From Bacillota bacterium (lineage in GTDB: Bacteria; Bacillota; Limnochordia; DTU087), in assembly GCA_012798695.1 (NCBI GenBank), contig JAAZMR010000114.1, forward strand, positions 1 through 34,995: a stretch of DNA of 34,995 nucleotides, written 5' to 3'. Below, in pieces: positions 12,741 to 33,675 of this stretch (its first letter is position 1; each line of letters opens with the position of its first letter). The notes under the pieces were generated by a model. It saw nothing but the letters and a program-made list of their open reading frames with translations, did no database searches and was not told the DNA's origin. Both the position numbers and the translations under genes were made by a program.

Positions 12741-12846
12741 CTCTTATCCAGAGAGGTGGAGGGACTGGCCCGATGAAACCCGGCAACCGGCGCTTGGCGC
12801 AAGGTGCCAATTCCTGCAAGTGCCTTTAGGCACTGAGAGATGAGAG
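12741..12846 (+). ncRNA. SAM-I (S-box) riboswitch aptamer
   Basis: The leader contains the S-box conserved blocks in order: CTCTTATCCAGAGAGGTGGA, GGGACTGGCCCGATGAAACC, CGGCAACC, AAGGTGCCAATTCCTGCA and GAGAGATGAGAG. The closing helix P1 pairs CTCTTATC (12741-12748) with GATGAGAG (12839-12846). S-box RNAs bind S-adenosylmethionine and stop transcription of methionine genes when it is abundant. AGACGGAG (12845-12852) can pair with TTCCGTCT (12872-12879), forming an antiterminator that excludes the downstream terminator, so ligand binding is expected to switch the operon off. Confidence 0.96.
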
Positions 12847-16355: not shown

Positions 16356-16460
16356 TGGTGGTGTTTTGCAGTCCTGGAACGAAAATGGGGCAGGAGCTGC
16401 TGCTCTGGGTAGCGAATGTCTGTGAGAAGGTTGAGTGGCAGACAAAGGAGAGCGGTTTTT

Positions 16461-17624
16461 ATGGCCCGCAAACCGGCAATAGATATGCAGGGTATTGATC
16501 AAATTTTTCAGCAGACTGTGGCGGCCCTGCGTGATGGTCGAGACTCGATATCTGGCATTGCGGAAGCGGCACAAGATGAATATGAACGGTTGCAGATCCA
16601 ATCTGAGGAAATTCGCCATGAGACAGCAACCTGTGTAAAACAAGTGGATTTGCTGGAAAAGCAATTGCGGAAAGCCAAGACCCGTTTGGCTATCGTCAAT
16701 AGGGATTTCGAACGTTACGGAGAAGAGGAGATCAAACAAGCTTATCATGAGGCTCAGGCTTTGCAGATCGAGGTTGCCGTAGCTCGAGAAAGAGAGGCGG
16801 CTCTGCGGCGAAAGCGTGATGAGCTAGAGCGCAGTCTCCGCAACTTGGCCCAACTGGTGATTAGGGCCGAGAATATGGTGAAACAGGTCGGCGCGGCTAT
16901 GAACATTCTGGCCGGCAATCTGGAAGATGCCTTAGTTCAGATCGAGAGCCTGCAGGAAAAGTCGGTACTGGCTACTAGGATCATCCAAGCTCAAGAAGAT
17001 GAACGTCGTCGTGTTGCCAGGGATATTCATGATGGGCCGGCTCAGTCCATGGCCAATGTGGTTCTTAGGGCAGAGATCTGTGAACGGCTGTTAGATGCTG
17101 ACCGCAATGAACTGGCCCAGGAGCTTGCAGAACTGAAAACTATGGTAAAGAAAACCTTGGTCGATGTCCGGCGGATAATCTTTGATTTGCGACCGATGGC
17201 TTTAGATGATCTGGGCCTGGCTCCAACACTGCGTCGTTTCATGGAATCGGTCAAGGAAGAAACAGGCATCAATGCCGATCTAATTGTTCTCGGCAAAGAG
17301 CAGCGCTTAGCGGGGACGGTGGAGGTTACCGTCTTTCGTCTAATCCAAGAGGCGGTCAACAATGCTCGCAAACATGCTAAAGCCAATCGAATCATGGTCA
17401 GACTGGAGTTCACTGATAACCTCATAAACACCCAAGTGGAAGATGATGGTGTCGGTTTTGACCTGGAAAGAGCCCGCCAAAGGGCCAGGAATGCAGATAG
17501 TTATGGGTTGATGTCCATGGAGGAGCGGGTGGATCTACTAGGTGGAGAACTGCGGATAGTCTCTATGCCTGGGGAAGGCACTACAGTATCTGCTCGTATA
17601 CCACTGGGCTATACCGAAGAGTAA
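16461..17624 (+). CDS. degS: DegS-like cytoplasmic sensor histidine kinase
   Basis: A soluble NarL-type histidine kinase of 387 residues, nearly the length of B. subtilis DegS (385), with no membrane segment. Residues about 20-185 form a long charged coiled-coil sensor region as in DegS. The HisKA_3 dimerisation block is ERRRVARDIHDGPAQSMANV with phospho-acceptor H190; a second landmark is IIFDLRPMALDDLGLAPTL. The ATP-binding domain has the N-box EAVNNARKHA (297-306), DDGVGFD and SYGLMSMEERV. ATG 16461 is chosen because AAAGGAG lies 10 nt upstream; an upstream in-frame start adds 15 unsupported residues. It is 28 nt before the partner regulator, and both precede the Tad pilus locus, which they may control. 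Confidence 0.88.
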   Translation: MARKPAIDMQGIDQIFQQTVAALRDGRDSISGIAEAAQDEYERLQIQSEEIRHETATCVKQVDLLEKQLRKAKTRLAIVNRDFERYGEEEIKQAYHEAQALQIEVAVAREREAALRRKRDELERSLRNLAQLVIRAENMVKQVGAAMNILAGNLEDALVQIESLQEKSVLATRIIQAQEDERRRVARDIHDGPAQSMANVVLRAEICERLLDADRNELAQELAELKTMVKKTLVDVRRIIFDLRPMALDDLGLAPTLRRFMESVKEETGINADLIVLGKEQRLAGTVEVTVFRLIQEAVNNARKHAKANRIMVRLEFTDNLINTQVEDDGVGFDLERARQRARNADSYGLMSMEERVDLLGGELRIVSMPGEGTTVSARIPLGYTEE

Positions 17625-17652
17625 TACATATCTAAAAGAGGAGGGTGGCTTT

Positions 17653-18393
17653 TTGGATCGGATAAAGGTACTTATTGCTGATGATCATGCACTGCTGCGG
17701 CAAGGTTTGTGCCGTATCTTGGAACTAGAAGAGGATATCGAGGTGGTAGCCCAGGCAGCCGACGGCGAAGAGGCAGTGGCCCTAGCCCAAGAGCTACACC
17801 CTGATGTGATATTGATGGATATTAATATGCCGGGCCTCAATGGCCTGGAAGCCACTCGCATGGTCAAGGAAGTGGCTCCACAGAGCAAGATTCTGGTACT
17901 GACTATTCATGATGATGATGAATATGTGTTTAAGGTCATGCAAGCAGGTGCCAGCGGCTATGTGCTCAAGGATGTGGATCCATCCAATCTGGCGGAGGCG
18001 ATTCGCACGGTCAACCAGGGACATGCTTATCTCAGATCTCCCTTACTGGAAAAAGTATTAGAGGAATTCGGACGACTTTCCCAGGTTCGGGAGGAGGTAG
18101 CTGCCACTAGAGAATGGCAAGGCTCAGCCATTACTGATGACTCAAAATCTGAGGAGCCCGACAGCGGAGACCCGGGGTTGCTTGCTCGCCTTACGGCCAG
18201 AGAAAGGGAGATTTTGGAATGTATCGTGGGTGGACAAAGTAATAAGGAGATCGCCGTCACCCTAGTGATTAGTGAGAAGACAGTCAAAAACCACGTGAGC
18301 AACATATTGCGGAAACTGGATTTGGCTGACCGCACTCAGGCCGCTGTCTATGCCTTGAAGAAAGGGGTAAATGGTCGACGCATAGAGGACTAG
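17653..18393 (+). CDS. degU: DegU-like response regulator (NarL/FixJ family)
   Basis: A 246-residue response regulator. The receiver domain (1-125) has the acidic pair D10/D11 in LIADDHALLRQG, phospho-acceptor D56 in LMDINMPGLNG (same position as DegU), T84 in LTIHDDDE and K106 in YVLKDVDP. A linker of about 50 residues, longer than usual and acidic at its end, leads to a LuxR-type helix-turn-helix (about 180-240) with LTAREREILECIVGGQSNKE and EKTVKNHVSNILRKL. TTG 17653 is preceded by GAGGAGGG at about 8 nt. It is the natural partner of the DegS-like kinase. DegU-family regulators govern motility, biofilm and secretion genes elsewhere; the adjacent pilus locus is a likely target. Confidence 0.9.
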   Translation: MDRIKVLIADDHALLRQGLCRILELEEDIEVVAQAADGEEAVALAQELHPDVILMDINMPGLNGLEATRMVKEVAPQSKILVLTIHDDDEYVFKVMQAGASGYVLKDVDPSNLAEAIRTVNQGHAYLRSPLLEKVLEEFGRLSQVREEVAATREWQGSAITDDSKSEEPDSGDPGLLARLTAREREILECIVGGQSNKEIAVTLVISEKTVKNHVSNILRKLDLADRTQAAVYALKKGVNGRRIED

Positions 18394-18435: not shown

Positions 18436-18659
18436 CCCCTGCGCAAATTCCACCTGTTCTCAACTCCTAGCTCAAGGTTGCACTACTCGGCTCGTGGAGG
18501 CAGCCTTAGGCAGGAAGGAGTAGGGCAAAAGTCCTTTTTACAGATATTTCAGCAAATAGAACCGGATCATTAGTGCTTCTTTCCCTCTTGAATTAAGCCC
18601 TTCGCAGGATTCCTTTCCAGCTCGCCTTATGAGAAAATCAATATAACAAGAAAACCTAG
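18436..18659 (+). other. Leader upstream of the c-di-GMP aptamer, no gene seen
   Basis: This stretch should hold the promoter of the Tad operon. TATAAC near 18645 could be a -10 box, but no good -35 hexamer stands 17 bp upstream, so the promoter may need an activator such as the DegU-like protein. A short inverted pair CTACTC/GAGTAG flanks a GGCAGCC-containing segment around 18484-18523. No coding frame looks real. Confidence 0.4.
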
Positions 18660-18761
18660 CTTCCGATAAAGGCAAACTCTTCGAAAGAAGAGGACGCAAA
18701 GCCACGAATCTAAAGCGGTTCAGAGTGCCGCGGAACTGCTATGATGGTCGGGCTGCCGAAG
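18660..18761 (+). ncRNA. Cyclic-di-GMP-I (GEMM) riboswitch aptamer
   Basis: The class I c-di-GMP aptamer blocks are present in order: AAAGGCAAA, a perfect CTCTTC-GAAA-GAAGAG hairpin with a GNRA loop (18677-18692), GACGCAAAGCC (18693-18703), CTAAA, a second hairpin GCGGTTC/GAACTGC, then TATGATGGTCGGGCTGCCGAA. The GNRA loop and the ACGCAAAGCC block are the hallmark of the family. CTTC (18660-18663) can close with GAAG (18758-18761), giving approximate boundaries. The aptamer is followed by an intrinsic terminator and then the flp pilin gene, so the second messenger should control Tad pilus expression. Confidence 0.92.
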
Positions 18762-18861
18762 AACGGGATAATCACCCGGCTATGGGTGTGTCGTATATCA
18801 CCCGTATCCACCTAAGAAGGAACCCGTTTGTCCAGGCCGCCGCCCAGCAAACGGGCTTTTT
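18762..18861 (+). terminator. Expression platform and terminator of the c-di-GMP riboswitch
   Basis: CCCGTTTG (18823-18830) pairs with CAAACGGG (18848-18855), followed by CTTTTT: an intrinsic terminator. AACGGG at 18762-18767, directly behind the aptamer, repeats the terminator's 3' arm and can pair with CCCGTT (18823-18828) to form an antiterminator. In between, CACCC (18773-18777) and CACCCGTA (18799-18806) compete for GGGTG (18784-18788). The layout fits transcriptional control; whether ligand turns it on or off cannot be read by eye. Confidence 0.8.
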
Positions 18862-18930
18862 GATTGGAGAAGGGTTTGCCTTTCAGGAGGTGAAGGGCTT
18901 GCGGCTTTACATAAGAGGAGGTAAGCAAAT

Positions 18931-19134
18931 ATGTTATCAACACTATGGTTCTATCTGAAGACCTGGTTTGTCATGGATGAAGAAGGACAGGGTATGGTGG
19001 AGTATGGGTTGATATTGGCGTTGGTGGCTGTAGGGGTTATCATAGCTTTAGGTGCTTTAGGTACGGACTTAAGCGGCCTCTTCCAGGGAATCGCAAACAA
19101 GGTTGGGGCGGAGACAACAACTCTAGGAACTTGA
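18931..19134 (+). CDS. flp: Flp/Fap-type major pilin
   Basis: A 67-residue prepilin, the structural subunit of the Tad pilus. The leader MLSTLWFYLKTWFVMDEEG precedes the processing site G19/Q20, and the mature protein begins QGMVEYGLILALV with Glu at +5 and Tyr at +6, the Flp signature, followed by one hydrophobic helix. A class III/type IV prepilin peptidase is needed for maturation but is not encoded in this window. ATG 18931 has GAGGAGGT 8 nt upstream. It is the first gene after the c-di-GMP riboswitch, so the pilin is the most directly controlled product. Confidence 0.93.
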   Translation: MLSTLWFYLKTWFVMDEEGQGMVEYGLILALVAVGVIIALGALGTDLSGLFQGIANKVGAETTTLGT

Positions 19135-19230: not shown

Positions 19231-19629
19231 ATGACACAAAGGTTTTGGGGGCGGGATGACAGGGGTCAGGCCTTAGTGGAACTGGCCCTTGTCCTAACCA
19301 TCTTATTGACATTGCTTTTGGGAACGGTGGAGTTTGGCCGCATCGGCCACGCCTATCTCACAGTACTCCATGCTTCGCGGGAGGGGGCCCGTGTGGGAGC
19401 TTTGGGGTATGAGGATAAGGATATCACCGCGCGGGTGAGGGCCGCGGCTGCATCTATCCCTGATGAGGAGCTGAGCATTCAGGTATTACCAGATAAGGGG
19501 CAGCGGTTTATTGGTGAACATATAGAAGTCTCTGTTTCCCACGATGTGCACTTAGTGGTTCCCTTCTTCTCTGGGATTCTGCCAGACCCTTTTCCTGTAA
19601 TCGGCAGAACCACGATGCGCATCGAATAG
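19231..19629 (+). CDS. tadE: TadE-like minor pseudopilin
   Basis: A 132-residue TadE-family protein. After a short basic leader, RGQALVELALVLTILLTLLL gives a prepilin-like site (G12/Q13, with Glu at +5) and one transmembrane helix, continuing into VEFGRIGHAYL and HASREGARVGALG, typical of TadE. The rest is a small extracytoplasmic domain. Such pseudopilins help pilus initiation or surface presentation. ATG 19231 lacks a strong ribosome site. The 96-nt gap before it contains an imperfect long inverted repeat, perhaps setting the high pilin to low pseudopilin ratio. Confidence 0.85.
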   Translation: MTQRFWGRDDRGQALVELALVLTILLTLLLGTVEFGRIGHAYLTVLHASREGARVGALGYEDKDITARVRAAAASIPDEELSIQVLPDKGQRFIGEHIEVSVSHDVHLVVPFFSGILPDPFPVIGRTTMRIE

Positions 19630-19666: not shown

Positions 19667-20620
19667 ATGCTGGGTAAGAAACACCGAGCATTTCTCCATA
19701 GAACACACTCCAGCGGCGATGATGCTGGTGCCGTCCTAGTTATGACTGCACTCTTCTTGGTAGTCCTTCTCGGTTTTTCCGCTCTAGTAATCGATGTGGG
19801 CCTTTTATACATCAACCGTTTGGCCTTGGTCAATGCCGTGGATGCTGCGGCTTTGGCCGGAGTGCAGGATCTACCTTACAGCCCTACCATGGCCATAGAA
19901 AACGCCAAACGCTATGCCGCTACCAATGGGGCTGACCGGGATGGAGTGAGTGTCTTAGTGCGCGATAATGATCATGAAGTCCAGGTTACCGCATTCCGGG
20001 ATGTACACCTTTATCTAGCCCGAATCTTTGGCAGAACCGAGCAGCGCATAACGGCCTCTGCTACCGCTCGAGTAGGTAGTATTCGTGCCTATAGGGGTGT
20101 TGTGCCCTTCGGCATAGAAGCACAAGATTTTATCTGGGGCGAGCAATATATCCTGAAACTTGACCCTCACGTTGAACCGGGCCCTTTTCGCGGCAATTTC
20201 CAAGCACTAGCTCTAGGTGGGCAGGGGGCCTCCGACTATGAAGAAAACTTGATATATGGTTATCAAGGGGTGCTGGAAGTAGGAGACTGGATTGATACCG
20301 AACCGGGGAATATACGGGGAAAGACCATCAAGGCAGTCAGAACCAGGATCAATCAGTGTCCACACTATCCCAAATGTACTTGGGAACATGTGGAAAAGGG
20401 ATGCAGCCGAGTGGTCATCACCCCGGTGATCAAGTCCTTTCAGGATGCAAAAGGGCGGAGTGAGAAAGTGGAGGTTGTGGGCTTTGCTGCCTTCTTCCTG
20501 GAGGGTACGCTTCAAGGAAGTGACAGTGCTGTTGTCGGCAGATTTCTGCCCATCGTGGTCACCGGCGAATTGGGGGATGCCGGAGATTTTGGCCTGAGGG
20601 GATATAAACTTGTCAAGTAA
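19667..20620 (+). CDS. TadG-like pilus assembly protein
   Basis: A 317-residue membrane-anchored protein. The N-terminal TadG/TadE-type helix reads AVLVMTALFLVVLLGFSALV, followed by IDVGLLYINRLALVNAVDAA and ALAGVQDL, the typical 'pilus assembly TadG-like, N-terminal' pattern. A typical pseudopilin Glu is absent. The C-terminal part is extracytoplasmic and contains three Cys (in QCPHYPKC and KGCSR) that may form a disulfide or bind metal. No von Willebrand A domain is evident, unlike full TadG proteins, so I give no symbol. ATG 19667 has GGGGGTG 8 nt upstream. It follows tadE by 37 nt. Confidence 0.82.
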   Translation: MLGKKHRAFLHRTHSSGDDAGAVLVMTALFLVVLLGFSALVIDVGLLYINRLALVNAVDAAALAGVQDLPYSPTMAIENAKRYAATNGADRDGVSVLVRDNDHEVQVTAFRDVHLYLARIFGRTEQRITASATARVGSIRAYRGVVPFGIEAQDFIWGEQYILKLDPHVEPGPFRGNFQALALGGQGASDYEENLIYGYQGVLEVGDWIDTEPGNIRGKTIKAVRTRINQCPHYPKCTWEHVEKGCSRVVITPVIKSFQDAKGRSEKVEVVGFAAFFLEGTLQGSDSAVVGRFLPIVVTGELGDAGDFGLRGYKLVK

Positions 20621-20658: not shown

Positions 20659-21504
20659 ATGAGAAAAAGAAAGTTACTTTTGATTGCTGCCGCCTTGGGC
20701 TTGCTGGCGGCTGTATTGACTTATACATATATTCGTTCTATGGAAACCGATAGTGTCCAGCAGGTCAAGGAAGTAGGGGTAGTGGTTGCCATGGCTGACA
20801 TACCCTCTGGCACTACCGTTAGTGCCAACATGGTGCGTCTTACTCAGATTGCCCAGACAGCCTTGCATCCGGAAGCCGCGATTACAACCAGTGAAGTCAT
20901 TGGAAGAATCACCAAGACTCCCATAGTTCAAGGGGAACAGATTCTGCGCAACCGTCTCTTGCCGGCTGGGGTGAGACCCTCCCTCTCCTTCGCTATCCCC
21001 AGCGGTAAGCGGGCGGTTTCTGTGGCGGTCAATGAGGTTGTGGGTGTAGCTGGCTTCGTCAAGCCGGGGGATCGGGTGGATATCTTGGCTACCATCGAGG
21101 ATCCGGATCTGGAAGATACGGTAACCAGTACCGTCTTGCAGGATGTAGAGATACTGGCTATAGCTCAGGACATGGAAGAACAAGTAGACAAAAAGCCTAA
21201 AGTGACGACTACGGTTACATTAGCGGTTACCTTGGCTGAAGCCCAAAAAGTGACCTTAGCTGAAGAAACCGGAGTGCTCAGATTGGCATTGCGGCCGGTA
21301 ACTGCGGCAAATAGGGAATGGGTAAACCCCACAAGTAGTGACCAGTTGGCTAAGACAGCAGCTCCCCAAGCGGCCCCTCAAGTGGTTGTGAAAACCATAG
21401 CACCCCCCAAAACGGTATCTCATCCAGCCAGGCCACCTCAGGATCATCAGGTGGAGATTATCCGGGGCACAGACCGGGAGTTAGTATCGGTGAAATCAAA
21501 TTAG
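20659..21504 (+). CDS. cpaB: Flp pilus assembly protein CpaB/RcpC
   Basis: A 281-residue inner-membrane-anchored periplasmic protein. Residues about 5-27 form a hydrophobic N-terminal anchor. A SAF/CpaB domain follows (VVVAMADIPSGTTVSANMVR), then the RcpC core SGKRAVSVAVNEVVGVAGFV and KPGDRVDILATIED. The C-terminal tail (about 225-281) is rich in Pro, Ala and Gln and looks disordered. CpaB is thought to act with the secretin in the periplasm, and the gene stands just upstream of the secretin as in Caulobacter. ATG 20659 has GAGGGAGG closely upstream. Confidence 0.92.
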   Translation: MRKRKLLLIAAALGLLAAVLTYTYIRSMETDSVQQVKEVGVVVAMADIPSGTTVSANMVRLTQIAQTALHPEAAITTSEVIGRITKTPIVQGEQILRNRLLPAGVRPSLSFAIPSGKRAVSVAVNEVVGVAGFVKPGDRVDILATIEDPDLEDTVTSTVLQDVEILAIAQDMEEQVDKKPKVTTTVTLAVTLAEAQKVTLAEETGVLRLALRPVTAANREWVNPTSSDQLAKTAAPQAAPQVVVKTIAPPKTVSHPARPPQDHQVEIIRGTDRELVSVKSN

Positions 21505-21520: not shown

Positions 21521-24500
21521 GTGGTGACGACTACAAGCAGAAAGTGGCCCGGTCTCATACTTATTCTCATCATTCTTTTTGCGCTTTTCTCTGGTGTAGC
21601 TGAGTCCCAAGACTTCACCCTCCCCCCTCATGGTGAGCTATTAGTTCTACCTCGGGGGGAGTCTTTACTACTTCCTGTCTTTGAGCCCAAACGAGTAGCC
21701 GTAGCAGATCCACTGATCGCTGATGTAGTAATTGTCAATACCGAGCAGATCTTAGTCAATGGAATCAATGTGGGGACTACCACTCTGCAGATTTGGGAGA
21801 ACAATGGAGTGGCTTACTATCGAGTACGAGTGGTCCCCAACCCAGATGCCTTAGTTGCGGAATTGAGGAAGCAGCTGAATCTACCGGGAATCAAGATCCA
21901 TATCCTCAATGAAAAAGTGATTCTTGATGGCATCATTGAGAGCAATGCAGATCGGGAGCGGGCTCTCAAGCTGGCAGGCGCCTATGGTGAAGTAATTGAC
22001 TTGCTGCAGGTAACGGGGGCCTTGGCAGAGTCAGATCTTGCTCAAGAACTAGCCGAGGTTATTCAGAGGCCAGATATACAAATCAGGGAGATTAATGATT
22101 ATCTAGTGCTAGAAGGGGAGACCTCGTCTCTAGAGGAACGTCACCGGGCAGAACTGCTAGCTTCTACCTTTAACCGGCCGGTACTCAACTTCCTGAAGAT
22201 CCCTTCTGATGAGCAGCCCATGGAGCTGTTAGCTGGGGAGATCGCTCAACATATTGCCATTCCTACTATCCAAGTGAGGGTGATTGCCGATCAAACCTTC
22301 CTCTTGGAGGGCGAGGTCCCTGAACTTGCCTTAAAGGAAAGAGCTGCTGCCATTGCTCATGCCTTTGGTCAACCGGTAGTTAACCTAATTCAGGTGCAGG
22401 AGAAGCCTTCACCGGTTGCGGCAGGCACTACTGATGTGGTAGCCAAGAGTGACTCTCCTATAACTGAGCCTGGCGCTGTGGCAAAAGCCAAGCCGGGGGA
22501 TGATTCTGGTATGACTGAAGCAGTAGCGCCAGAACCTGTAGAAGCACTCCCTGCTGACACAGAAATCGCTGAGCCAGATATTCATGCCTGGGTACAGGAA
22601 ATGAAAAAGGAAATCGATGACCCCGATGTCTCTTTGCGGGTTATTCAGGACACGGTACTTTTGGAGGGTATGGTGAAATCCGAGTATGCTCGGGAGCGGC
22701 TCATCGCCATAGCTCAGCTATATCCAGTGCGCATCGTGGATTTATTGCAGATGGAAGACCAGCCGATTGATCACCTGACTCAGGAAAGAGAATGGCTGGT
22801 GCGATATATCAATGACCCGAATATCCAGGTCACCTTAGTACACAACACTGTACTTTTGGAGGGGGAAATTGCCTCTGAGCTGTCACGGCGGCGGGCGGTG
22901 GCTGTTGCCCGGGCTTTAGGGCTGGAAGTTGTAGATTTGCTGGAACTCAAGGCAGATATACTGGAAGCAGATCATGTTGATGGCTTCACGGAACTAGATG
23001 ATGCGGAAGTGACTACACCAGATTTATGCCAGATAGTTCCAGATATGAAGGCGGCTTTGGGCGAGGAAAACCTCCAGATCTTCGAACTAAATGGGTTGAT
23101 TGTGATTGAAGGACAGGTGCCCAACGAGTTTCGCAAACTGAGGGCAGAGCGCATCGCCGCTACTTTTCAGGTGCCTCTCTTGACCCTTATTCAAATTGAG
23201 CATTCCCCAGTAGAAGAGGCGAATGAGCAGGTGAAGCCCACGGAACCGGCAGATATGGCACTCGTCGAACCGTCGGGAGAGCCTAAAGCAACACCCAAGC
23301 AGTCCACGGTGGCGATGGAAGCAAGTGATATAGCCTCAGAAGGAACCGAGCCAGAGGGCATGGCGGTCCCCTTGGAAGGATCTGCTGAACAACATGAAAC
23401 TGATGCAGCTCGAGAAATCGAAAACGCCGTCGGCCTATCCGGGGTGGTTGTGCACATGATACAAGGCGCAGCCGTTTTGGATGGTTTCGTGCAAAATGAA
23501 CTAGAAGCCCAGGGAGCGGAAGCCATAGCCGGGCTCTTCGCCGATATGGTAGTCAACCGCCTACAGATACTCCCCCCAGCCGAGATCCCCGGTCCCGGGC
23601 TTTGTGAAATGATCAGTGAGGTTCTGGCTCTACCCACAGTCCAAGTGAATTTAGCTGGCGAAAAACTGCTCTTAGAAGGCGTTGTCTCCGATCAGAAAGA
23701 GTTGGAACGGGCAGTGAAAATCGCCGGTGCTTTCGGAAAAGAAGTGATCAACCTGATTCGGGTAGAGGCACCTCTGCAGGTACTGCTTAAGGTCAAGGTA
23801 GTAGAGGCCAGCCGAGTGGATCTAGATCGAGTGGGCATCAGTTGGGGCTCCCTGGAAAGGGGAGTACTCATTCCCGATGTTGTGTATATAGGAGAACTGA
23901 TGATTGATGAGCCCTTAGAAAGGCTGTATCCCATTGGAGCTAGACTGGAAGCACTAATCGATGAGGGTAAGGCCCGGCTTCTGGCTGCACCGAGCCTACT
24001 TACTCTTAGTGGCAAGGCAGCTGAGTTCTTGTCGGGAGGCGAGATCCCGGTAACAGTCCCTAAGGATGGAGATTTGCAGATCCTTTGGAAGGAATATGGA
24101 GTTAAGCTCAACATCCTGCCTGTTGTGGTAGATGAAGATGCTGTTGAGGTGATCGTAAGACCGGAAGTCTCTACTTTGGACTGGGCGAATGGCATCCGCA
24201 TTGATTCCTTGACACTGCCGGCCATGAAAACTCGGAGGACAGAGACAGTAGTCTATATCCAAGATGGTACGACCTTTGTGATCAGCGGCCTTTTGGCAAA
24301 CACTGACTCACAGCAGGTACATAAAGTGCCATTGCTTGGTGATCTGCCGATTATCGGGAAGCTGTTTCGCAGTGAGCAGTTCAAGACTGATCAGTCAGAG
24401 TTGATCTTCTTCGTTACACCCCACATCCTCAGGGGCAATGAACCAGCTATGGATCAGGAACTTTGGCGAGATGAGGATATACAAAGAAGGGAGGGACTCA

Positions 24501-24535
24501 CTTGTGCGCCAGCGGTTGCGTCTTTTGATTGCTGA
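21521..24535 (+). CDS. cpaC: Secretin CpaC with about eight BON-like repeats
   Basis: The outer-membrane channel of the Tad pilus, 1004 residues, roughly twice the usual CpaC length. A signal peptide (about 1-29) precedes an N-terminal pilus-secretin domain (about 36-106, PKRVAVADPLIADVVIVN). Then come about eight BON-like modules of roughly 58 residues at 108-164, 171-227, 234-292, 352-411, 418-476, 500-560, 627-684 and 691-748, each with a core like 'I-x-V-x-x-I-x-x-x-V-x-L-E-G' and an ending like 'VVDLLQV'. Acidic Pro/Ala/Glu-rich linkers lie at about 293-350 and 562-625. The secretin domain spans about 750-972, with AAPSLLTLSGKAAEFLSGGE, IPVTVP, VPLLGDLPIIGKLFR and ELIFFVTPHIL. GTG 21521 has AAAGGGGA upstream; GTG 21524 is possible. 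Its presence implies an outer membrane. Confidence 0.93.
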   Translation: MVTTTSRKWPGLILILIILFALFSGVAESQDFTLPPHGELLVLPRGESLLLPVFEPKRVAVADPLIADVVIVNTEQILVNGINVGTTTLQIWENNGVAYYRVRVVPNPDALVAELRKQLNLPGIKIHILNEKVILDGIIESNADRERALKLAGAYGEVIDLLQVTGALAESDLAQELAEVIQRPDIQIREINDYLVLEGETSSLEERHRAELLASTFNRPVLNFLKIPSDEQPMELLAGEIAQHIAIPTIQVRVIADQTFLLEGEVPELALKERAAAIAHAFGQPVVNLIQVQEKPSPVAAGTTDVVAKSDSPITEPGAVAKAKPGDDSGMTEAVAPEPVEALPADTEIAEPDIHAWVQEMKKEIDDPDVSLRVIQDTVLLEGMVKSEYARERLIAIAQLYPVRIVDLLQMEDQPIDHLTQEREWLVRYINDPNIQVTLVHNTVLLEGEIASELSRRRAVAVARALGLEVVDLLELKADILEADHVDGFTELDDAEVTTPDLCQIVPDMKAALGEENLQIFELNGLIVIEGQVPNEFRKLRAERIAATFQVPLLTLIQIEHSPVEEANEQVKPTEPADMALVEPSGEPKATPKQSTVAMEASDIASEGTEPEGMAVPLEGSAEQHETDAAREIENAVGLSGVVVHMIQGAAVLDGFVQNELEAQGAEAIAGLFADMVVNRLQILPPAEIPGPGLCEMISEVLALPTVQVNLAGEKLLLEGVVSDQKELERAVKIAGAFGKEVINLIRVEAPLQVLLKVKVVEASRVDLDRVGISWGSLERGVLIPDVVYIGELMIDEPLERLYPIGARLEALIDEGKARLLAAPSLLTLSGKAAEFLSGGEIPVTVPKDGDLQILWKEYGVKLNILPVVVDEDAVEVIVRPEVSTLDWANGIRIDSLTLPAMKTRRTETVVYIQDGTTFVISGLLANTDSQQVHKVPLLGDLPIIGKLFRSEQFKTDQSELIFFVTPHILRGNEPAMDQELWRDEDIQRREGLTCAPAVASFDC

Positions 24536-25730
24536 TGATTCGGCTCCTACTCGGGACAGCCTCAAGAGGCTGCTGGATTTTGAACAAGATATCGAGGTCG
24601 TCGGCGAAGCAGCTGATGGAGAAGAGGCGATTGCCCAAGCAAGAGCGCTGCTGCCTGATGTGATTTTGATGGATATCAACATGAGTCCGGTGGATGGTAT
24701 CACCGCCACCGAAGTGATCTCCACCGAGCTTCCCCGCATTGTGATCGTGATGATGTCTGTTCAAGGGGAACAGGAATATTTGAGGCAAGCCATGGCCGCA
24801 GGGGCTAGGGATTATTTGACCAAACCGTTTAGTGGTGATGAACTGGTGCACACTCTTCATAATGCCTATGAACTGGAGTCTAGACGCTGGCTGCACTTAG
24901 ACAAGGATTCATCGCTCTCCCCGGATTATAGTGGAAAGGTGATCACTATTTTTAGTGCCAAAGGTGGGGTCGGCAAGACCACCATCGCCACTAATTTGGC
25001 TGCTCTCCTCAGCCACGAATTGGAGAAAAACGTGATCATAGTTGACCTGGACCTGCAATTTGGCGATGTACCGGTACTACTCGATTTTGTGCCCCGCAGA
25101 ACTATAGTTGACCTCACCCAAGCTGTTGATTGGGGCAGAGATGAAGTTCAACATTGTCTTTACCAGTATTCACCTAACCTTAGGGTGATGGCTCCACCCA
25201 CGCGGCCCGAAGAGGCGGAATTGGTAACAGGGAGCCATGTCAAACAACTGATCGGTACCCTAAGGCAACTGGCAGATTACGTGGTCATTGATACTGCTCA
25301 GAGCTTCCATGAGCCGATCCTAGCGGCTCTAGATGAATCAGATTATATTGCGATCATTGCTACCTTGGATATTCCTACGATCAAGAATGTACGGCTTTGT
25401 CTGGAAGTCATGCAGGAAGTCTTGGACTATCCGGCAGACAAGACCAAACTGGTGGTCAATCGGGCCGCCGATGATATTGGCATCAAGGCCACTGAACTGG
25501 AAGAAAGGCTGGGTATCAGCATTTCGGCCAAGATTCCCAGTGATGGACGCCTGGCAGTCCAGGCAGCCAATACCGGGATTCCCTTTGTGCTGTCTAACGC
25601 AAAATCCGATCTTAGCCGGGGAATTCGCCAGTTGGCTGTGAAACTAGCCGGTGATACTGAGGCTGATACTCCAGAGGCAGCACCGGGTTGGGGCCTTCTA
25701 GGTAGGCTTTTACGGCATGGTGGTACATAG
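24504..25730 (+). CDS. cpaE: CpaE/TadZ: receiver domain fused to MinD-like ATPase
   Basis: A 408-residue protein that positions the Tad machine. The N-terminal receiver domain (1-120) keeps all phospho-relay residues: D11/D12 (LLIADDSAPTRDS), acceptor D57 (LMDINMSPVDG), S85 (VMMSVQG) and K107 (YLTKPF). Many TadZ receivers are degenerate, so this one may be switchable. The C-terminal ParA/MinD ATPase has the deviant Walker A SAKGGVGKTTIATNLA (151-166), VIIVDLDLQFGDVPVLLD and YVVIDTAQSFHE. GTG 24504 is chosen because GGGAGGG lies about 8 nt upstream; the gene then overlaps the cpaC end by 32 nt. Confidence 0.92.
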   Translation: MRQRLRLLIADDSAPTRDSLKRLLDFEQDIEVVGEAADGEEAIAQARALLPDVILMDINMSPVDGITATEVISTELPRIVIVMMSVQGEQEYLRQAMAAGARDYLTKPFSGDELVHTLHNAYELESRRWLHLDKDSSLSPDYSGKVITIFSAKGGVGKTTIATNLAALLSHELEKNVIIVDLDLQFGDVPVLLDFVPRRTIVDLTQAVDWGRDEVQHCLYQYSPNLRVMAPPTRPEEAELVTGSHVKQLIGTLRQLADYVVIDTAQSFHEPILAALDESDYIAIIATLDIPTIKNVRLCLEVMQEVLDYPADKTKLVVNRAADDIGIKATELEERLGISISAKIPSDGRLAVQAANTGIPFVLSNAKSDLSRGIRQLAVKLAGDTEADTPEAAPGWGLLGRLLRHGGT

Positions 25731-25796
25731 CCAAATATGGAAAGTGTAGAGAGACGAATGAGGGATGATTATTTGTAATGAGAGGTGACTGGGAAA

Positions 25797-27185
25797 GTGT
25801 CTTTACTGAGGCGTTTGGAGCAAAAACACAATGTGCAGGTTACAAAAAGCGCCGAGCAATCCCAGCCAGCCGCGGCGATCCCACCAACTAGGCCGGTGAT
25901 GAGTCGCAAAGTCGATCCTTTCGTAAAGCTAAAAAGCAAGATCCATGAGGAACTGGTGGCTGCAATAGATCCATCCCTGCTGACTGGGTCGGAAGATCCT
26001 GCCAAGAAGCAAGAGCTCGAACGAAAGCTAGAAGAGATCGTTGAGCAGATCATTGACGAAGAGGCTCCTCACCTGACCAACACCGAAAGACAGCGGATCA
26101 TTACCGATATTATCGATGAGGTAATGGGGTTTGGCCCGATTACCCCACTGCTGACCGATCCCAGCATTTCCGAAGTGATGGTCAATGGCCCTAAACAAGT
26201 CTATGTGGAGCGATCGGGCCGGCTGGAGATCACCGATGTAGGCTTTCGGGATGATGCCCATGTGATGCACATTATTGAAAAGATCGTGGCTCCTTTAGGA
26301 CGCCGCATCGATGAGAGTATGCCGATGGTTGATGCCCGGCTGCCTGATGGCTCCCGAGTTAATGCCATCATCCCTCCGCTCAGTCTCAATGGTCCGGTGA
26401 TCACGATTAGGAAGTTCGCTGCTGATCCCTTTACGGTGGAAGACTTAATCGAGTTCGGCACTTTGACATCGGAGGTTGCAGAATTTCTGAAAGCTTGTGT
26501 TCAGGTGAGACTAAATATAGTGGTGTCTGGGGGAACGGGTTCCGGAAAAACGACTCTGCTGAACGTGTTATCCTCCTTTATCCCCACTGATGAACGGATT
26601 GTGACCATTGAAGATGCTGCCGAACTGCAGCTGCGGCAAGAACACGTAGTATCCCTGGAAAGCCGACCTCCTAACATCGAGGGAAAAGGTGCTATTGCCA
26701 TTCGGGATTTGGTACGCAATGCTTTGAGGATGAGGCCTGATCGAATCGTGGTAGGGGAAGTCCGGGGTGGTGAAGCCCTGGATATGCTGCAGGCCATGAA
26801 TACCGGCCATGATGGCTCCTTGACCACCGGTCATGCCAATACCCCTCGGGACATGTTATCGCGACTGGAGACCATGGTACTGATGGCCGGGATGGAGCTG
26901 CCGGTAAGAGCCATTCGGGAGCAGATTTCCTCTGCCATTGATGTGATTGTCCAGACCATTCGCCTGCGGGATGGCAGCCGCAAGATTGTGCAGGTCACTG
27001 AGGTTCAGGGGATGGAAGGAGATGTGATCACTTTGCAGGATGTGTTCGTGTTTGAGCAGCTAGGTGTCGATGAAGCTGGTAAGATCCAAGGCCGTTTCTA
27101 TCCCACCGGTATTCGCCCCAAATTCATGGATCGGCTGGAGGCTGCCGGGATCAGGTTGGGACCGGAACTATTTGGCGGCTATTAA
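25797..27185 (+). CDS. tadA: Tad pilus assembly ATPase TadA/CpaF
   Basis: A 462-residue hexameric secretion ATPase (VirB11/GspE superfamily) that drives pilus extension and, in Tad systems, retraction. The N-terminal part up to about 100 is helical; the all-beta domain has [13 protein letters not shown]. The motor has Walker [17 protein letters not shown] (243-258), an Asp box IEDAAELQL, Walker [17 protein letters not shown] and the His box [18 protein letters not shown] 25797 is chosen because GAGGTGA lies 8 nt upstream; GTG 25785 would add four residues. It follows cpaE by 66 nt and is followed closely by the two membrane platform genes. Confidence 0.95.
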
Positions 27186-27200
27186 GGAGGCACAAGGCCT

Positions 27201-28169
27201 GTGATCTGGGTGCTGATCAGTTTTGTAACTGTTACCTGTCTCGCCTACTTTCTGTTGGCTGCACAACTGGATGAAGCCAGGCTGCAGCGCCGGTTGGAGC
27301 GGGCCACCTTTGGCAGGGTTGCCGCAGAAAGTGAGCCATTGCGGGATACCCAAGGGCAGGAAGATAAGCCGGGATTTTGGCACAGGTGGCAAGGGCGTTG
27401 GGGCAAACTTACCTCGGTTGAACCGGGCGGGGGGTTAGGCCTGCGGCTCCACCGAGCGGGCATTCCCCTCAAAGAAGGTGAGTTTCTGGCCTTCAATGCC
27501 TTCACTGGATTAGTTGCCGGTCTGCTGGGCCTCATCTTCACGCGAGGGCGGCTCTTGCAGACCCTGCTTTTCTTGCTCTTAGGACTCATTTTGCCCCAGT
27601 TTTACCTTTTGCGCAAAGAGAAGGCCTCGATGTCGGCTCTCAGTGGTCAAATCGCCGATTCCTTGATCCTAATGGCCAATTCTCTGAGAGCCGGTCATAG
27701 TTTCCTGCAGGCCATGGAGATGGTAGCCCGGGAAATGACTCCACCTATCTCCCGGGAGTTCCGGCGAGCCCTACAAGAGATGAATCTGGGTATCCCTGTG
27801 GAAACAGCCCTAGCCGCCATGGGCCAGCGGGCCGGCAATGAGGATCTGGAGTTGATGATTACCGCGGTACTTATTCAAAGGCAGGTAGGAGGCAACTTGG
27901 CGGAAATCCTTGATACCATCGCCGAAACCATCAGGGAAAGAGTGCGAATTCAAGGTGAGATCAAGACTCTTACGGCTCAAGGCCGCATATCTGGTGTGAT
28001 CATTTGTCTCTTGCCCTTGGCTATAGGTGGGTTCATTTTTGTGCTTAATCCTGGATACCTGAATCTTCTCTTTACCGATCCTTTGGGCAAGACCATGGTG
28101 GGTATTGGGGTTGTCGGTCAGTTGGCAGGGATCTTTGCCATCCGGAAGATCATACAGATCAATGTCTAG
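27201..28169 (+). CDS. tadB: Tad pilus inner-membrane platform protein TadB
   Basis: A 322-residue type II secretion F-domain protein forming half of the inner-membrane platform on which TadA works. There is one N-terminal membrane segment (LISFVTVTCLAYFLLAAQL), a pair in the middle (about 93-130), and a C-terminal pair including GVIICLLPLAIGGFIFVLNP. The cytoplasmic T2SSF domain lies between about 140 and 265 (SLILMANSLRAGHSFLQAME, NEDLELMITAVLIQRQVGGN). GTG 27201 has AAGGAGG 11 nt upstream, directly behind the tadA stop. tadC follows after 14 nt. Confidence 0.92.
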   Translation: MIWVLISFVTVTCLAYFLLAAQLDEARLQRRLERATFGRVAAESEPLRDTQGQEDKPGFWHRWQGRWGKLTSVEPGGGLGLRLHRAGIPLKEGEFLAFNAFTGLVAGLLGLIFTRGRLLQTLLFLLLGLILPQFYLLRKEKASMSALSGQIADSLILMANSLRAGHSFLQAMEMVAREMTPPISREFRRALQEMNLGIPVETALAAMGQRAGNEDLELMITAVLIQRQVGGNLAEILDTIAETIRERVRIQGEIKTLTAQGRISGVIICLLPLAIGGFIFVLNPGYLNLLFTDPLGKTMVGIGVVGQLAGIFAIRKIIQINV

Positions 28170-28183
28170 GAAGGAGGGTTCAT

Positions 28184-29098
28184 ATGCCTCTCTTTTTAGG
28201 GGCCATCGCCATCACGGTAACGGTAATCGTTTATCTGGTGGCTATAGCCATGTATGAACCCAGAGAGCGGGTAGATCGCCGTCTTGACAGGGTATTTGGC
28301 CAATCTGCACAAGCTGCTTCTATATCTGTACCCGAAGAACCCTTTTTCCAGCGGGCAGTCTTGCCATTACTGACTGATCTGAGCCGTTGGGTAATCCGCA
28401 TCACACCTGTAGGCTGGCGCAATTCCGTACGCTACAAGCTCATCTTGGCCGGGAACCCGGGGGGCTTAGAAACCGGCCAGTTTATTACTCTTTACTTGCT
28501 GGTCATGGTGGCATTGACCTTAATTTTTTTCCTGCTCACACAGGGGACCAAACAGCAGATGCTGTTTAGCTTTGTCGGTTTTGGGTTTGGTTTGCTCATA
28601 CCGGATTTCTGGTTGAAAGGGCGCATCCAGGCCCGCCAAGGAGCTATGCGCAAAGCACTACCCTCTTTTCTGGATTTGCTGACAGTCAGTGTAGAAGCAG
28701 GTCTAGGCTTTGATGCTGCTCTAGCTAGGGTAACCGCCCGGGAATCAGGACCGCTGGCAGAAGAGTTTCAGCGGGTCTTGCAGGAAATTCGGATGGGTAA
28801 ACCCCGGCGTGATGCCCTCAAGGATCTAGGTGGCCGTACTGAGGTAAAGGAGCTTTCCGGTTTTGTAGCTGCCCTTGTGCAGGCAGATCAGCTGGGAGTG
28901 AGTATTGGTAATGTCTTGAGGGTACAGGCTCAACAGATGCGCCGTTCCCGTCGGCAGCGAGCTGAAGAAGCTGCTATGAAAGCACCGATAAAAATGCTCT
29001 TCCCCTTGGTTTTCTTTATTTTTCCCAGCCTATTTATTGTGCTGCTCGGGCCGGCGGTAATTCAGTTGTTGGGGACCTTTGGCCAGATGACGCGTTAG
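28184..29098 (+). CDS. tadC: Tad pilus inner-membrane platform protein TadC
   Basis: A 304-residue T2SSF-domain partner of TadB. An N-terminal membrane segment (LGAIAITVTVIVYLVAIAMY) is followed by a middle pair around 100-145 and a C-terminal segment near 265-300 (PLVFFIFPSLFIVLLGPAVI). The cytoplasmic domain holds ALPSFLDLLTVSVEAGLGFD, ALARV and a LVQADQLGVSIGNVLRVQAQ stretch, typical of TadC. ATG 28184 has AAGGAGGGT about 6 nt upstream. It is the last core Tad gene; the surface-protein genes follow on the same strand. Confidence 0.92.
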   Translation: MPLFLGAIAITVTVIVYLVAIAMYEPRERVDRRLDRVFGQSAQAASISVPEEPFFQRAVLPLLTDLSRWVIRITPVGWRNSVRYKLILAGNPGGLETGQFITLYLLVMVALTLIFFLLTQGTKQQMLFSFVGFGFGLLIPDFWLKGRIQARQGAMRKALPSFLDLLTVSVEAGLGFDAALARVTARESGPLAEEFQRVLQEIRMGKPRRDALKDLGGRTEVKELSGFVAALVQADQLGVSIGNVLRVQAQQMRRSRRQRAEEAAMKAPIKMLFPLVFFIFPSLFIVLLGPAVIQLLGTFGQMTR

Positions 29099-29123: not shown

Positions 29124-32100
29124 ATGAAAAGAATGAGCAGCTGGTCAAAAATGCAGAAATCAGGATGGTTAGCTGTATTGGCTGCAATCTACATGCTGCT
29201 GTTTTGCTGTTCCCTCTCGGTAACCGCTGCTACGGTAGTCTCTGGAAGAATTTCCAGCAGTGTTCGCTGGGTACCGGAAAGCAGTCCCTATATTGTCAGT
29301 GGAGATATCATCGTAGCTCGAGGGGCGACTTTGACTATTGCTGCCGGTACGGAAGTCCGCTTTCGCCGCTTTCCGAGCTCCCAACCATATACTAATCGAG
29401 GAGTACTGCGGGTGCTCGGGACGCTGCAGGTAGAAGGAAATAAGGATAAGCGGGTCTATTTTGGTTTGTCTGAGAATGGGGCTATCGGTGATTGGGGTGG
29501 CATTTGGGTCGATGGATACTATGGTGGCCGAGTAATCATGGAATACGCTGAAGTAGAAAATGCGCAGCGGGGCATTTATGTGTCGGGCGGCAGTCCTGTG
29601 ATTAAGCATAGTCGCTTTAGTTCCAATTTCACCGGCATTCATCTAGAGCAAACCACTGATTTCAATGTAGAGGGCAATATCCTCAGTGGCAATGATTATG
29701 GCATTTACCTAGATAGCTCTCAAGGGGCTGTACACAAGAACTCCGTGATCAGCAATCCCTGGGGGATCTACTCTTTCCTATCAAAGGGTGTGGCTATTAC
29801 TCACAATGCTATCAAGAGTAATGTGTTTGGGATTATCAATGACGGGGGTAGGCAAGATGTCATTGAATACAATGATTTTAGCATTCGTCAGCCCAATAAT
29901 TATGGGGTATATCTGGTTAGGGGCAAGCCGATCCGCATTAACCATAACAACTTCTTTTATGATCCCGAAATAGTGACCGATCCCCGCCAGGTATTCTGGT
30001 ATATCTGGAATGACGATAATGCCGGGGAAGTAAATGCCAGTAATAACTGGTGGGATACAGTCAAACCGGAGATTATCGAAGCCTATATCATGGATCGGCG
30101 GGATCGCTCTTATCTAGGACTAGTCAATTACTTGCCTTTGGCCTCGAGGCCCATCAGGGGCACGGCAGATGACATCTCTGCCCCTGTGGTCAGCATCAAT
30201 ACACTTAGCCCCTTTTCACCAGTTGTGGACGAATATGGCAGAGTGCCTGAAATGCATGTAACCTACAGCCTATCCGAGACGGCCAGTGAGCTCACAGCTA
30301 GGGTGATTGATATTAATGGGTTGATGGGCAGCAAGGGTAGAGTCCTGTGGAGTAAGACGTGGCAAGGTGCGGACAAGCTTTTGCGGGATGGGCAGCACAG
30401 CTGGACTTGGAACGCCCGTTTGGCTGGTGGCCAGGTACTAGCTGATGGCACATACCGCATAGAAGTGGTAGCTGAGGATAGGGAAGTACCTGGGTTGCTG
30501 AGTGACATAGCTCGCACCCGCCTGGTGATCGATAGCGTTCCTCCGGTCCTTACCATCATATTTCCGAGAAATGATGAAACCGTCTATTCCAATCGCTTGA
30601 TTGCCCGGGGCACAGTAGAAGATGACCACTTGGTGGGAGGGTTCGTGCTGGTTAGAGAGACGACTTTATTGGGCAGCACGCGGGCCGGTCTCGATGGAAT
30701 TCAGTGGAAAGCTCTGATCCCCCGGTTGCGGGAGGGTGTCAATGTATTGGAGGTAACTGCCTATGATGGGGCCGGCAATAAGACAAAACAGCAGACTAAA
30801 GTGACCTATGAGCCGGTATTGGATCTGCAAATCACCAGCCCCACCAACGTAGATGCTCAGGTAATTCGGGGCACCATCAGGAATGAGTTCCTCAGTGAGA
30901 TTGGCAGAGTGGATGTTAAGGTGAATGGGCAGCACTATGCCACCAAGCTAGATGCTGACAAATTCGCCACCTCCATAGCAGTGCCGTTGGTTGTGGGAGA
31001 AAACACGATTGAAGCTTTTGCCTATGATCACTCAGGTGCTGCTCGCGGAGATGTAATGGCCGTAATCGAGTATGATCCTTTGTACAATATTACGGTAGAA
31101 GGCAGCTTCCCTGCGGGGCTGCAAATGGTGTCTGTGCCAATGACACCCTTTCAGGATGATCCCACTCGTATCTTCAAATCTGCTGTAGCTCGGTGGGGTT
31201 ACTTAGAAAATACAGGGCCCGGCTATATCTATACAGGAGAGGACCTGGAACGGGTGACCCCTTATCGCGGTTACTGGTGGAAACCCGATACGCCTAAGCG
31301 TATAGAGGTTACCGGTAAGGCCTATGACCCGGCCAAAGGCTTCCAGTTCCCCTTGGAGGTTGGGTGGAATCAGATCGGGTGTCCTTTCTTACAACCTGTG
31401 CAGTGGGACAACGTCAAATTCACGGTCGATCAGGGTCGCTCTCTTACGTGGTGGGAGGCAGTGAAGGAAGGTTGGATATCTCGGGGCCTTTGGACATATC
31501 GAGATGGTGGCTATCTACCCAGCACGACCTTACAGCCCTGGTCTGGTTATTGGGTATTGGCTCGGCGTCAGCTTGAGGTAGTGATTCCCGCGGACGCGGC
31601 AGCCTCGGGCAACAGTAAATCCTTGGCTTCAACTAAGGGGGTGGCGGCAGCGTCACCGGTCCGGCGAGGCGGTTTGGCCGCCGCAGATGGTGTCCAGACA
31701 ACGTCAGGCTTGGAGCCCAACAGCTGGAGCATGCAGTTATCCATAGTGGCTGGCCAGATACAGGATCGGTATAACTACCTAGGAGTAGTACCAGGCGGGA
31801 AAAGAGGTTTTGATCCAGAGCATGATTTGGAGAAACCGCCTCCTGCCGGGGGGCCCACCCTTTGGCTCGAGTCAAAACCAAGTGCCATGGCGGCAGCAGC
31901 CAAAGCGGTGTCATCCAATTCAGCTGAAGCTCTAGGTGCACAAAATGGATTGCGCTTAGCAGCTGATTACCGGACTTTGGATGAAGTGCTGGTCTGGGAT
32001 ATCTTGATCGAGAATGATGCAAACACCGAAGAGGTAGTGCTTTCTTGGGCTGGTAATTGGGAACCCAGCCAGTGGCAGCTTGCTCTGCTCGATCCGGCTA

Positions 32101-32507
32101 CCGGGAGTCAACTCCTGCTCACTGCTTATGGAACCCGGACCCTGAGCTTAGCTTCCGGTGAAATCAAACATCTACAGGTACACGCCACTTCAGTGGGAGG
32201 AGAACTGTCCTTAAGAGATGTACTGCCCTATCCTAACCCCTGGACCATGAGCCGGCCTTTGAGACTGGGATTTACCATTACTCAGTCTGCCTTGGTGGAA
32301 GCTCGCATCTATGATGTGGCCGGTAATCTGGTGCGGATCCTACCGACAGAGAGAAAAGCCGCAGGCCGGCACTATTTCCAGTGGGATGGCCGCAATGGCC
32401 GGGGCCGCATCGCAGCCAATGGCCTGTATTTTTACCAAGTCAAAGCCCGTCCCTTGGCTGGGGGTAGAAGTGTCAAAGCTCAAGGAAGGTTGGTCATCCT
32501 ACGGTGA
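29124..32507 (+). CDS. Secreted beta-helix/Ig multidomain surface protein, candidate adhesin
   Basis: A 1127-residue exported protein with a signal peptide (hydrophobic core about 14-31, cleavage near VTAA). Residues about 40-345 look like a right-handed parallel beta-helix with NosD/PbH1-type turns (GIYVSGGSPVIKHSRFSSN, GNDYGIYLDSSQGAVHKNSV). About 350-470 is a FlgD-like Ig domain (SWTWNARLAGGQVLADGTYR), followed by two Ig-like domains (about 472-563 and 565-650). A 'PYRGYWW...GWNQIGCP...GYWV' region (about 660-820) comes next, then an Ala/Ser linker. The C-terminal FlgD-type Ig domain is at about 1030-1127 (YPNPWTMSRPLRLGF, YDVAGNLVRIL, WDGRNGRGRIAANGLYFYQV). No LPXTG or lipobox is seen. 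ATG 29124 has TAGGATGAG upstream, 25 nt after tadC. It may be a pilus-linked adhesin; the substrate is unknown. Confidence 0.75.
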   Translation: MKRMSSWSKMQKSGWLAVLAAIYMLLFCCSLSVTAATVVSGRISSSVRWVPESSPYIVSGDIIVARGATLTIAAGTEVRFRRFPSSQPYTNRGVLRVLGTLQVEGNKDKRVYFGLSENGAIGDWGGIWVDGYYGGRVIMEYAEVENAQRGIYVSGGSPVIKHSRFSSNFTGIHLEQTTDFNVEGNILSGNDYGIYLDSSQGAVHKNSVISNPWGIYSFLSKGVAITHNAIKSNVFGIINDGGRQDVIEYNDFSIRQPNNYGVYLVRGKPIRINHNNFFYDPEIVTDPRQVFWYIWNDDNAGEVNASNNWWDTVKPEIIEAYIMDRRDRSYLGLVNYLPLASRPIRGTADDISAPVVSINTLSPFSPVVDEYGRVPEMHVTYSLSETASELTARVIDINGLMGSKGRVLWSKTWQGADKLLRDGQHSWTWNARLAGGQVLADGTYRIEVVAEDREVPGLLSDIARTRLVIDSVPPVLTIIFPRNDETVYSNRLIARGTVEDDHLVGGFVLVRETTLLGSTRAGLDGIQWKALIPRLREGVNVLEVTAYDGAGNKTKQQTKVTYEPVLDLQITSPTNVDAQVIRGTIRNEFLSEIGRVDVKVNGQHYATKLDADKFATSIAVPLVVGENTIEAFAYDHSGAARGDVMAVIEYDPLYNITVEGSFPAGLQMVSVPMTPFQDDPTRIFKSAVARWGYLENTGPGYIYTGEDLERVTPYRGYWWKPDTPKRIEVTGKAYDPAKGFQFPLEVGWNQIGCPFLQPVQWDNVKFTVDQGRSLTWWEAVKEGWISRGLWTYRDGGYLPSTTLQPWSGYWVLARRQLEVVIPADAAASGNSKSLASTKGVAAASPVRRGGLAAADGVQTTSGLEPNSWSMQLSIVAGQIQDRYNYLGVVPGGKRGFDPEHDLEKPPPAGGPTLWLESKPSAMAAAAKAVSSNSAEALGAQNGLRLAADYRTLDEVLVWDILIENDANTEEVVLSWAGNWEPSQWQLALLDPATGSQLLLTAYGTRTLSLASGEIKHLQVHATSVGGELSLRDVLPYPNPWTMSRPLRLGFTITQSALVEARIYDVAGNLVRILPTERKAAGRHYFQWDGRNGRGRIAANGLYFYQVKARPLAGGRSVKAQGRLVILR

Positions 32508-33384: not shown

Positions 33385-33675
33385 ATGGAAAAGGCACGCA
33401 AATTCAAACAGCTCAATGAATCTGGCAAGCCGCTGCCGGAGGAAAAGTGCAAACATGGGTTTCCCGCCGGGCTTACCCCTCGGGAAGTAGAAGTTCTCGC
33501 CTTGATAGCTACCGGTATGACCAATGCCGAGATTGCCGACAGCTTATTCATCAGCCCGCATACGGTTAAAAACCATGTGACCAATATTTATAAGAAATTA
33601 CAGGTGGAAGACAGAACTCAGATTGCCCTTTGGGCGATTGCCTATGGTTTGGCCGGCGAAACACCTTCTGATTGA
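33385..33675 (+). CDS. Stand-alone LuxR/NarL-type DNA-binding protein
   Basis: A 96-residue protein that is essentially one LuxR-type helix-turn-helix (about 28-88): [20 protein letters not shown], then [20 protein letters not shown] and [14 protein letters not shown]. It has no receiver or ligand-binding domain, only about 27 polar residues in front. The HTH resembles that of the DegU-like regulator at 17653 (both share TVKNHV.NI..KL and the DRTQ motif). It closes the Tad gene cluster and may act as a constitutive or competing regulator of the same promoters (inference). ATG 33385 has a G-rich region upstream but no clean ribosome site. Confidence 0.8.

Follow-up and report, generated by a model that had tools for sequence, protein, structure and literature searches.

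Does a single RNA element that responds to c-di-GMP control the Tad/Flp pilus operon in this Bacillota genome, and does the ligand switch the operon on or off? The original prediction, made from the window (the whole stretch of 34,995 nucleotides analyzed here), placed a c-di-GMP-I riboswitch directly upstream of flp, with an intrinsic terminator and a possible antiterminator between them. The sequence blocks that it named (GAAA, GACGCAAAGCC, CTAAA, TGGTCGGGCTGCC, AACGGG, and CCCGTT), together with the terminator and flp, were all located at the claimed places, and the leader runs in the order aptamer (18660-18761), 61-nt linker, intrinsic terminator (18823-18861), and flp (from 18931). The best explanation of this arrangement is a transcription-attenuating c-di-GMP-I riboswitch acting on the Tad operon, most likely as an OFF switch, a reading to which we assign a probability of roughly 0.65.

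Table 1. Features of the riboswitch leader and the Tad gene cluster in the window
Feature	Position	Strand	Basis
Aptamer P1	18660-18665 with 18757-18761	+	Covariance-model match; conserved in nine same-family leaders
GAAA tetraloop of aptamer P2	18683-18686	+	Sequence
Aptamer P3, with 11-nt tetraloop-receptor-like sequence and ~23-nt P3 extension	within 18660-18761	+	
Aptamer block GACGCAAAGCC	18693-18703	+	Sequence
Tetraloop receptor on P3, CTAAA / TATG	18710-18714 / 18740-18743	+	Sequence
Aptamer 3' strand TGGTCGGGCTGCC	18745-18757	+	Sequence
G20-equivalent ligand contact	18671	+	Alignment; G in 138/138 distinct aptamers surveyed
A47-equivalent	18698	+	Alignment; A in 138/138 aptamers; RF03167 consensus is G
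C92-equivalent ligand contact	18756	+	C in 134/138 aptamers
Antiterminator 5' arm AACGGG	18762-18767	+	Abuts P1; invariant in nine leaders
CCCGTT, used both as antiterminator 3' arm and at the base of the terminator 5' arm	18823-18828	+	Invariant in nine leaders
Intrinsic terminator	18823-18861	+	Stem 18823-18830 with 18848-18855
Terminator loop decamer GGCCGCCGCC	18835-18844	+	Identical in nine family leaders
Terminator 3' arm CAAACGGG	18848-18855	+	Sequence
Terminator T run	18857-18861	+	Sequence
flp, pilin	18931-19134	+	PF04964
TadE-like pseudopilin	19231-19629	+	PF07811
TadG-like	19667-20620	+	PF13400
RcpC/CpaB	20659-21504	+	PF16976
RcpA secretin with BON domains	21521-24535	+	PF00263
TadZ-like (receiver domain and ParA-type ATPase)	24438-25730	+	PF00072, PF13614
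TadA/CpaF ATPase	25785-27185	+	PF00437
TadB	27201-28169	+	PF00482
TadC	28184-29098	+	PF00482
Large secreted protein, 1127 residues, beta-helix and FlgD_ig domains	29124-32507	+	PF05048, PF13229, PF13860

The search of the 2.7 Mb genome matched 18660-18761 on the forward strand to the c-di-GMP-I (GEMM-I) family RF01051 (clan CL00126) with 83.7 bits (E = 5e-17), the top score among four c-di-GMP-I aptamers, and cmscan of the window reported the same segment as RF03167 (c-di-GMP-I-GGC) with 72.5 bits (E = 1.6e-15). Both scores lie above the gathering cut-offs (35 bits for RF01051 and 59 bits for RF03167), so that the significant covariance-model hit on which the original prediction had staked its riboswitch was obtained with either model. 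The GNRA tetraloop on P2 and the receptor on P3 that the class requires are both present, with relatives carrying CTAAG, the usual receptor form, where the window has CTAAA. The presence of a c-di-GMP riboswitch upstream of the Tad genes is, in our judgment, nearly certain.

The bases at 18671, 18698, and 18756 are those that we take to correspond to G20, A47, and C92 in the numbering of Vc2. A47 of c-di-GMP-I aptamers is the intercalating base, stacked between the two guanines of the ligand. Among 138 distinct aptamers surveyed, drawn from relatives and six other Tad loci, 134 have G, A, and C at the three positions, and the other four deviate at the third base only. The identities of these bases in the window therefore make c-di-GMP the predicted ligand, which the aptamer would be expected to bind, and the six GGDEF genes of the genome indicate that a source of the ligand is present. 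A variant aptamer that recognizes something else, either cGAMP or whatever the GGC group binds, is very unlikely. The cGAMP riboswitches have A at position 20 (the G20A change), whereas the window has G18671, and a GEMM-Ib identity was rejected on this ground. The GGC identity was rejected as well, even though RF03167 was the family that cmscan reported, because A18698 stands where the distinguishing consensus base of that model is G; the A at this position therefore points to an ordinary c-di-GMP-I identity, and RF01051 gives more bits. The pilus genes of Geobacter carry cGAMP riboswitches of the same family (PMC9262584), which favors the variant reading, but the window retains all three of G20, A47, and C92.

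Downstream of the leader, Pfam matches for flp, tadE/G, rcpC, rcpA, tadZ, tadA, tadB, and tadC identify a Tad (type IVc) pilus operon, complete and co-directional and directly preceded by the riboswitch, as had been proposed; no prepilin peptidase was found among the Pfam matches of the cluster. The nearest relatives of its TadA are from Bacillota metagenome-assembled genomes, which puts the window itself in Bacillota. The genes from flp to tadC and the gene of the large beta-helix protein, which starts 25 bp after tadC, are co-directional with short gaps. Between 18380 and 34995 there was no convincing intergenic terminator (13 terminator-like sites versus 15.4 by chance in shuffles), and the gene-end hairpin between flp and tadE was unremarkable (z = -1.3). 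Because the terminator-like sites do not exceed the shuffles, nothing speaks against one long transcript, and we infer that the whole operon is co-transcribed. It is plausible, as was suggested, that one RNA switch serves the entire Tad locus; sole control is another matter. The genes directly upstream of the leader (16416-18393) encode a DegS/DegU-type two-component system, consisting of a DegS-type kinase and a response regulator of the LuxR type. The non-coding sequence from the response-regulator gene to the aptamer (18509-18654) is conserved, with 70 of 146 positions invariant in eight genomes, which suggests a promoter or regulator sites, and a scan of it gave no good sigma-70 promoter match. 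Elsewhere in the genome, contig C112 carries a further, unlinked RcpC gene of the Tad type, with no c-di-GMP-I aptamer found on C112. Given these three observations, the riboswitch is one control layer on one of two Tad-type loci.

Further elements were noted around the cluster. The C-terminal sequence of the same response regulator also precedes a Tad riboswitch in another family of the class (f3; L015 and L010), and downstream of the Tad cluster, 33385-33675 encodes a 96-residue stand-alone LuxR-type HTH protein without a receiver domain. A SAM riboswitch at 12741-12846 (89.6 bits) lies upstream of what is probably a metNIQ methionine importer, with genes for a NIL-domain ABC ATPase, a permease, and a substrate-binding protein; an MTA phosphorylase-like gene comes after these.

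The terminator hairpin has a folding energy of -18.4 kcal/mol (z = -2.2 versus shuffles) and had escaped a simple consensus scan because its loop is longer than 8 nt. An intrinsic terminator is accompanied by a conserved antiterminator with which it is mutually exclusive, which is the hallmark of a transcription-terminating riboswitch, and control of the leader by termination is very probable. The same leader occurs in nine genomes of the family of the window (f1; the window, L019, L024, L025, L028, L031, L032, L035, and L040), that is, in 9/9 same-family genomes with a high-scoring RcpC locus (E about 1e-31 to 1e-33), including two draft assemblies (G001 and G004) in which RcpC and the leader lie on different contigs; it was not found in the two family genomes without a high-scoring RcpC (G003 and G005). 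When the nine leaders were aligned, all 12 positions of AACGGG and CCCGTT were invariant, in comparison with 6 of 55 in the spacer between them; the pairing therefore exceeds chance, which supports its proposed role as antiterminator. The terminator stem carries a compensatory change from U-A to G-C in four genomes and several G-U changes, all with pairing kept. In covariation score and in paired cells, the whole structure stood above all 500 shuffles, a result that is supportive and not a formal probability, the sequences being related. That the leader is decayed or constitutive, with a terminator that sets a fixed expression level and a ligand without effect, is the least probable of the alternatives considered; four of the nine leaders do have one U-U mismatch in the P2 hairpin, but across all nine genomes the aptamer core does not vary and the structure persists, despite divergence of the spacer.

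Conservation is not required of terminator loops, and the loop GGCCGCCGCC is nevertheless the same throughout the family. Pairing of this loop with GGCNGCC in the 3' strand of the aptamer was rejected as its role, since loop-shuffled leaders do equally well. An extended antiterminator of the window (GA.GAACGGG with CCCGUUUGUC) is not kept in L019, L024, L025, and L028, where other registers are found. On the 3' side of the terminator there is a further conserved block (AAGGGTTTGCCTYY..AGGAGGTGA, 18870-18893). Within it, 18885-18893 match the Shine-Dalgarno sequence perfectly, about 37 nt upstream of the start of flp and in addition to the GGAGG of flp itself; the block may represent a leader ORF or an additional control element.

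The sign of the switch is the less certain part of the reading, and OFF at high c-di-GMP is probable rather than ON. When c-di-GMP is low, AACGGG just 3' of the aptamer would pair with CCCGTT, and this antiterminator could displace the free aptamer by extending into the 3' strands of P1 and P3; the terminator would not form in time, and the Tad genes would be read. When c-di-GMP is bound, P1 and P3 would be held in the aptamer, leaving only a weak antiterminator of six pairs, which the 3' arm of the terminator would displace, and RNA polymerase would stop near 18861. The terminator and the aptamer have no base in common and can coexist. In a published comparison, coexistence of this kind characterizes the OFF switch Cd1, whereas the ON switch pilM has a terminator that overlaps its aptamer (PMC9262584). 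In folding calculations, as long as the 3' arm of the terminator has yet to be transcribed, the antiterminator forms whether the aptamer is present or absent; in the full-length RNA, the aptamer lowers the competitiveness of the antiterminator by 1.0-6.5 kcal/mol in seven of eight leaders. The barrier from antiterminator to terminator is 11.5-20.7 kcal/mol in the free RNA versus 2.3-8.0 kcal/mol with the aptamer (8/8 leaders), but the mean difference was reached by 5, 14, and 16 of 100 shuffled terminators, depending on the type of shuffle, so that the OFF preference is weakly above controls. The rise in aptamer cost was no larger than in shuffles. It is the coexistence of terminator and aptamer, together with these calculations on the antiterminator, that leads us to lean toward OFF.

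Leaders of other families add to this picture. In f3 (L015 and L214), the complementarity of the terminator 5' arm and loop to the 3' strand of the aptamer exceeds that in shuffles (p = 0.003-0.01), as it does in L084 (0/300 shuffles, p < 0.003), and it is marginal in two leaders of family f7 (p = 0.03-0.04). Judged by these pairings, the predicted design of the f3 and L084 leaders, which precede the same type of operon, is unambiguously OFF. In the family of the window, the antiterminator exceeds chance only in its segment beyond the aptamer, and not in the segment overlapping the aptamer (p = 0.10-0.82).

A less likely but still serious alternative is that the same riboswitch acts as an ON switch. 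Without ligand, the aptamer 5' strand UUCCG (18661-18665) would pair with CGGGA (18764-18768; about -5.8 kcal/mol) and hide the antiterminator arm, so that the terminator forms; bound ligand would hold the strand in P1 and free AACGGG to pair with CCCGTT, and the Tad genes would be read. The minimum-energy fold computed for 18655-18822 contains this pairing, every leader that covers UUCCG and CGGG has them unchanged, and AACGGG abuts P1 without overlap and could stack on it. Fredinandcohnia onubensis (L067) has, by eye, a six-pair match at the same place (UUCGAU with AUCGAA) and lacks OFF-type complementarity (p = 0.48). However, UUCCG:CGGGA does not stand out in strength among 137 aptamers, of which many have a normal P1 extension there, and in the calculations the antiterminator still forms without ligand, most leaders paying 0-0.5 kcal/mol for it; the UUCCG pairing is therefore no block. 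Precedent exists on both sides: Bc2 of Bacillus thuringiensis is a class-I ON switch, but all seven functional class-I switches of Clostridioides difficile are OFF (PMC6366702).

For the OFF reading, the closest known system is Cd1 (Cdi-1-3), a class-I riboswitch of the C. difficile flgB operon, which has the same aptamer family as the window and is an OFF switch by experiment; in Cd1 the terminator is compatible with the aptamer and the antiterminator competes with it (PMC9262584, PMC6366702), a competition that in the window is a computed one. Cd1 controls flagella, whereas the leader of the window precedes Tad pili, and the antiterminator core of the window lies just outside the aptamer, unlike that of Cd1. 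The pilM riboswitch of Geobacter metallireducens (GEMM-Ib) likewise combines a GEMM-I aptamer with a terminator upstream of pilus genes, but it senses cGAMP, its terminator overlaps the aptamer, it is ON, and its targets are type IVa pilus genes (PMC9262584). Cdi-2-4 of C. difficile pilA1 is likewise a c-di-GMP riboswitch that acts on a pilus operon via termination, but it belongs to the unrelated class-II aptamers, is ON, and controls type IV rather than Tad pili; Bc2, on the cap gene of B. thuringiensis, shares the class-I aptamer, transcription termination, and an adhesion target, but it is ON and acts on a single collagen adhesin (PMC6366702).

Two other leaders in the genome of the window were noted. 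One (L002; contig C23, 15621-15709) is a c-di-GMP-I leader before a flagellar operon that starts with an FlgB-like and then an FlgC-like gene, a target that it shares with Cd1, with a terminator and an antiterminator that overlaps P1, a more Cd1-like overlap than in the Tad leader. The other (L004; contig C86, 28726-29024) consists of tandem c-di-GMP-I aptamers before a gene for a secreted protein and then a Wzz-like gene; the first aptamer is followed by a terminator whose loop is able to pair with the aptamer 3' strand, and the second lies directly before the ribosome-binding site of the secreted protein, making a mixed transcription/translation pair.

The association of such aptamers with Tad genes extends beyond the family. 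In the class, two f3 genomes (L015 and L010/L214) and three f7 genomes (L209, L210, and L138) have c-di-GMP-I aptamers before flp. Tad-type RcpC genes without a linked aptamer were found in other members (G016, G028, G030, G031, and G051), and the link is therefore not universal. Among 80 Tad loci of named genomes, fetched by their TadA protein, six have a c-di-GMP-I aptamer upstream of the Tad genes: directly before flp in Neobacillus muris (L079) and F. onubensis (L067), before a putative prepilin peptidase gene and then flp in L084, L111, and L113, and, in L069, as two tandem aptamers followed by another gene ahead of flp. The expression platforms of these six differ; L079 has no terminator, and L069 is tandem.

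We found no paper on a c-di-GMP riboswitch of Tad/Flp genes in the open-access literature, an absence that is weak evidence, and Tad genes are apparently an undescribed, recurrent target of c-di-GMP-I riboswitches. Work on how c-di-GMP controls Tad pili has mostly dealt with proteins. An RNA switch conserved upstream of the Tad operon, present in three families of one class and at six further Bacillota loci, would link c-di-GMP directly to Tad transcription. Since c-di-GMP usually promotes pili and adhesion, the suggestion that it governs attachment here, made without a sign, holds in so far as a c-di-GMP-I switch precedes a pilus operon, but the evidence leans toward OFF at high c-di-GMP, contrary to what that suggestion implied. 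Against OFF stands the known c-di-GMP riboswitch of the C. difficile type IV pili, an ON switch (PMC6366702), and the sign matters because ON is what has been described for c-di-GMP or cGAMP switches acting on pili of other types (PMC6366702, PMC9262584). An OFF switch on the Tad operon would group the pilus with the flagellum, whose flgB-type leader (L002) is in the same genome, as a low-c-di-GMP function and, if true, would reverse the usual expectation for c-di-GMP and pili.
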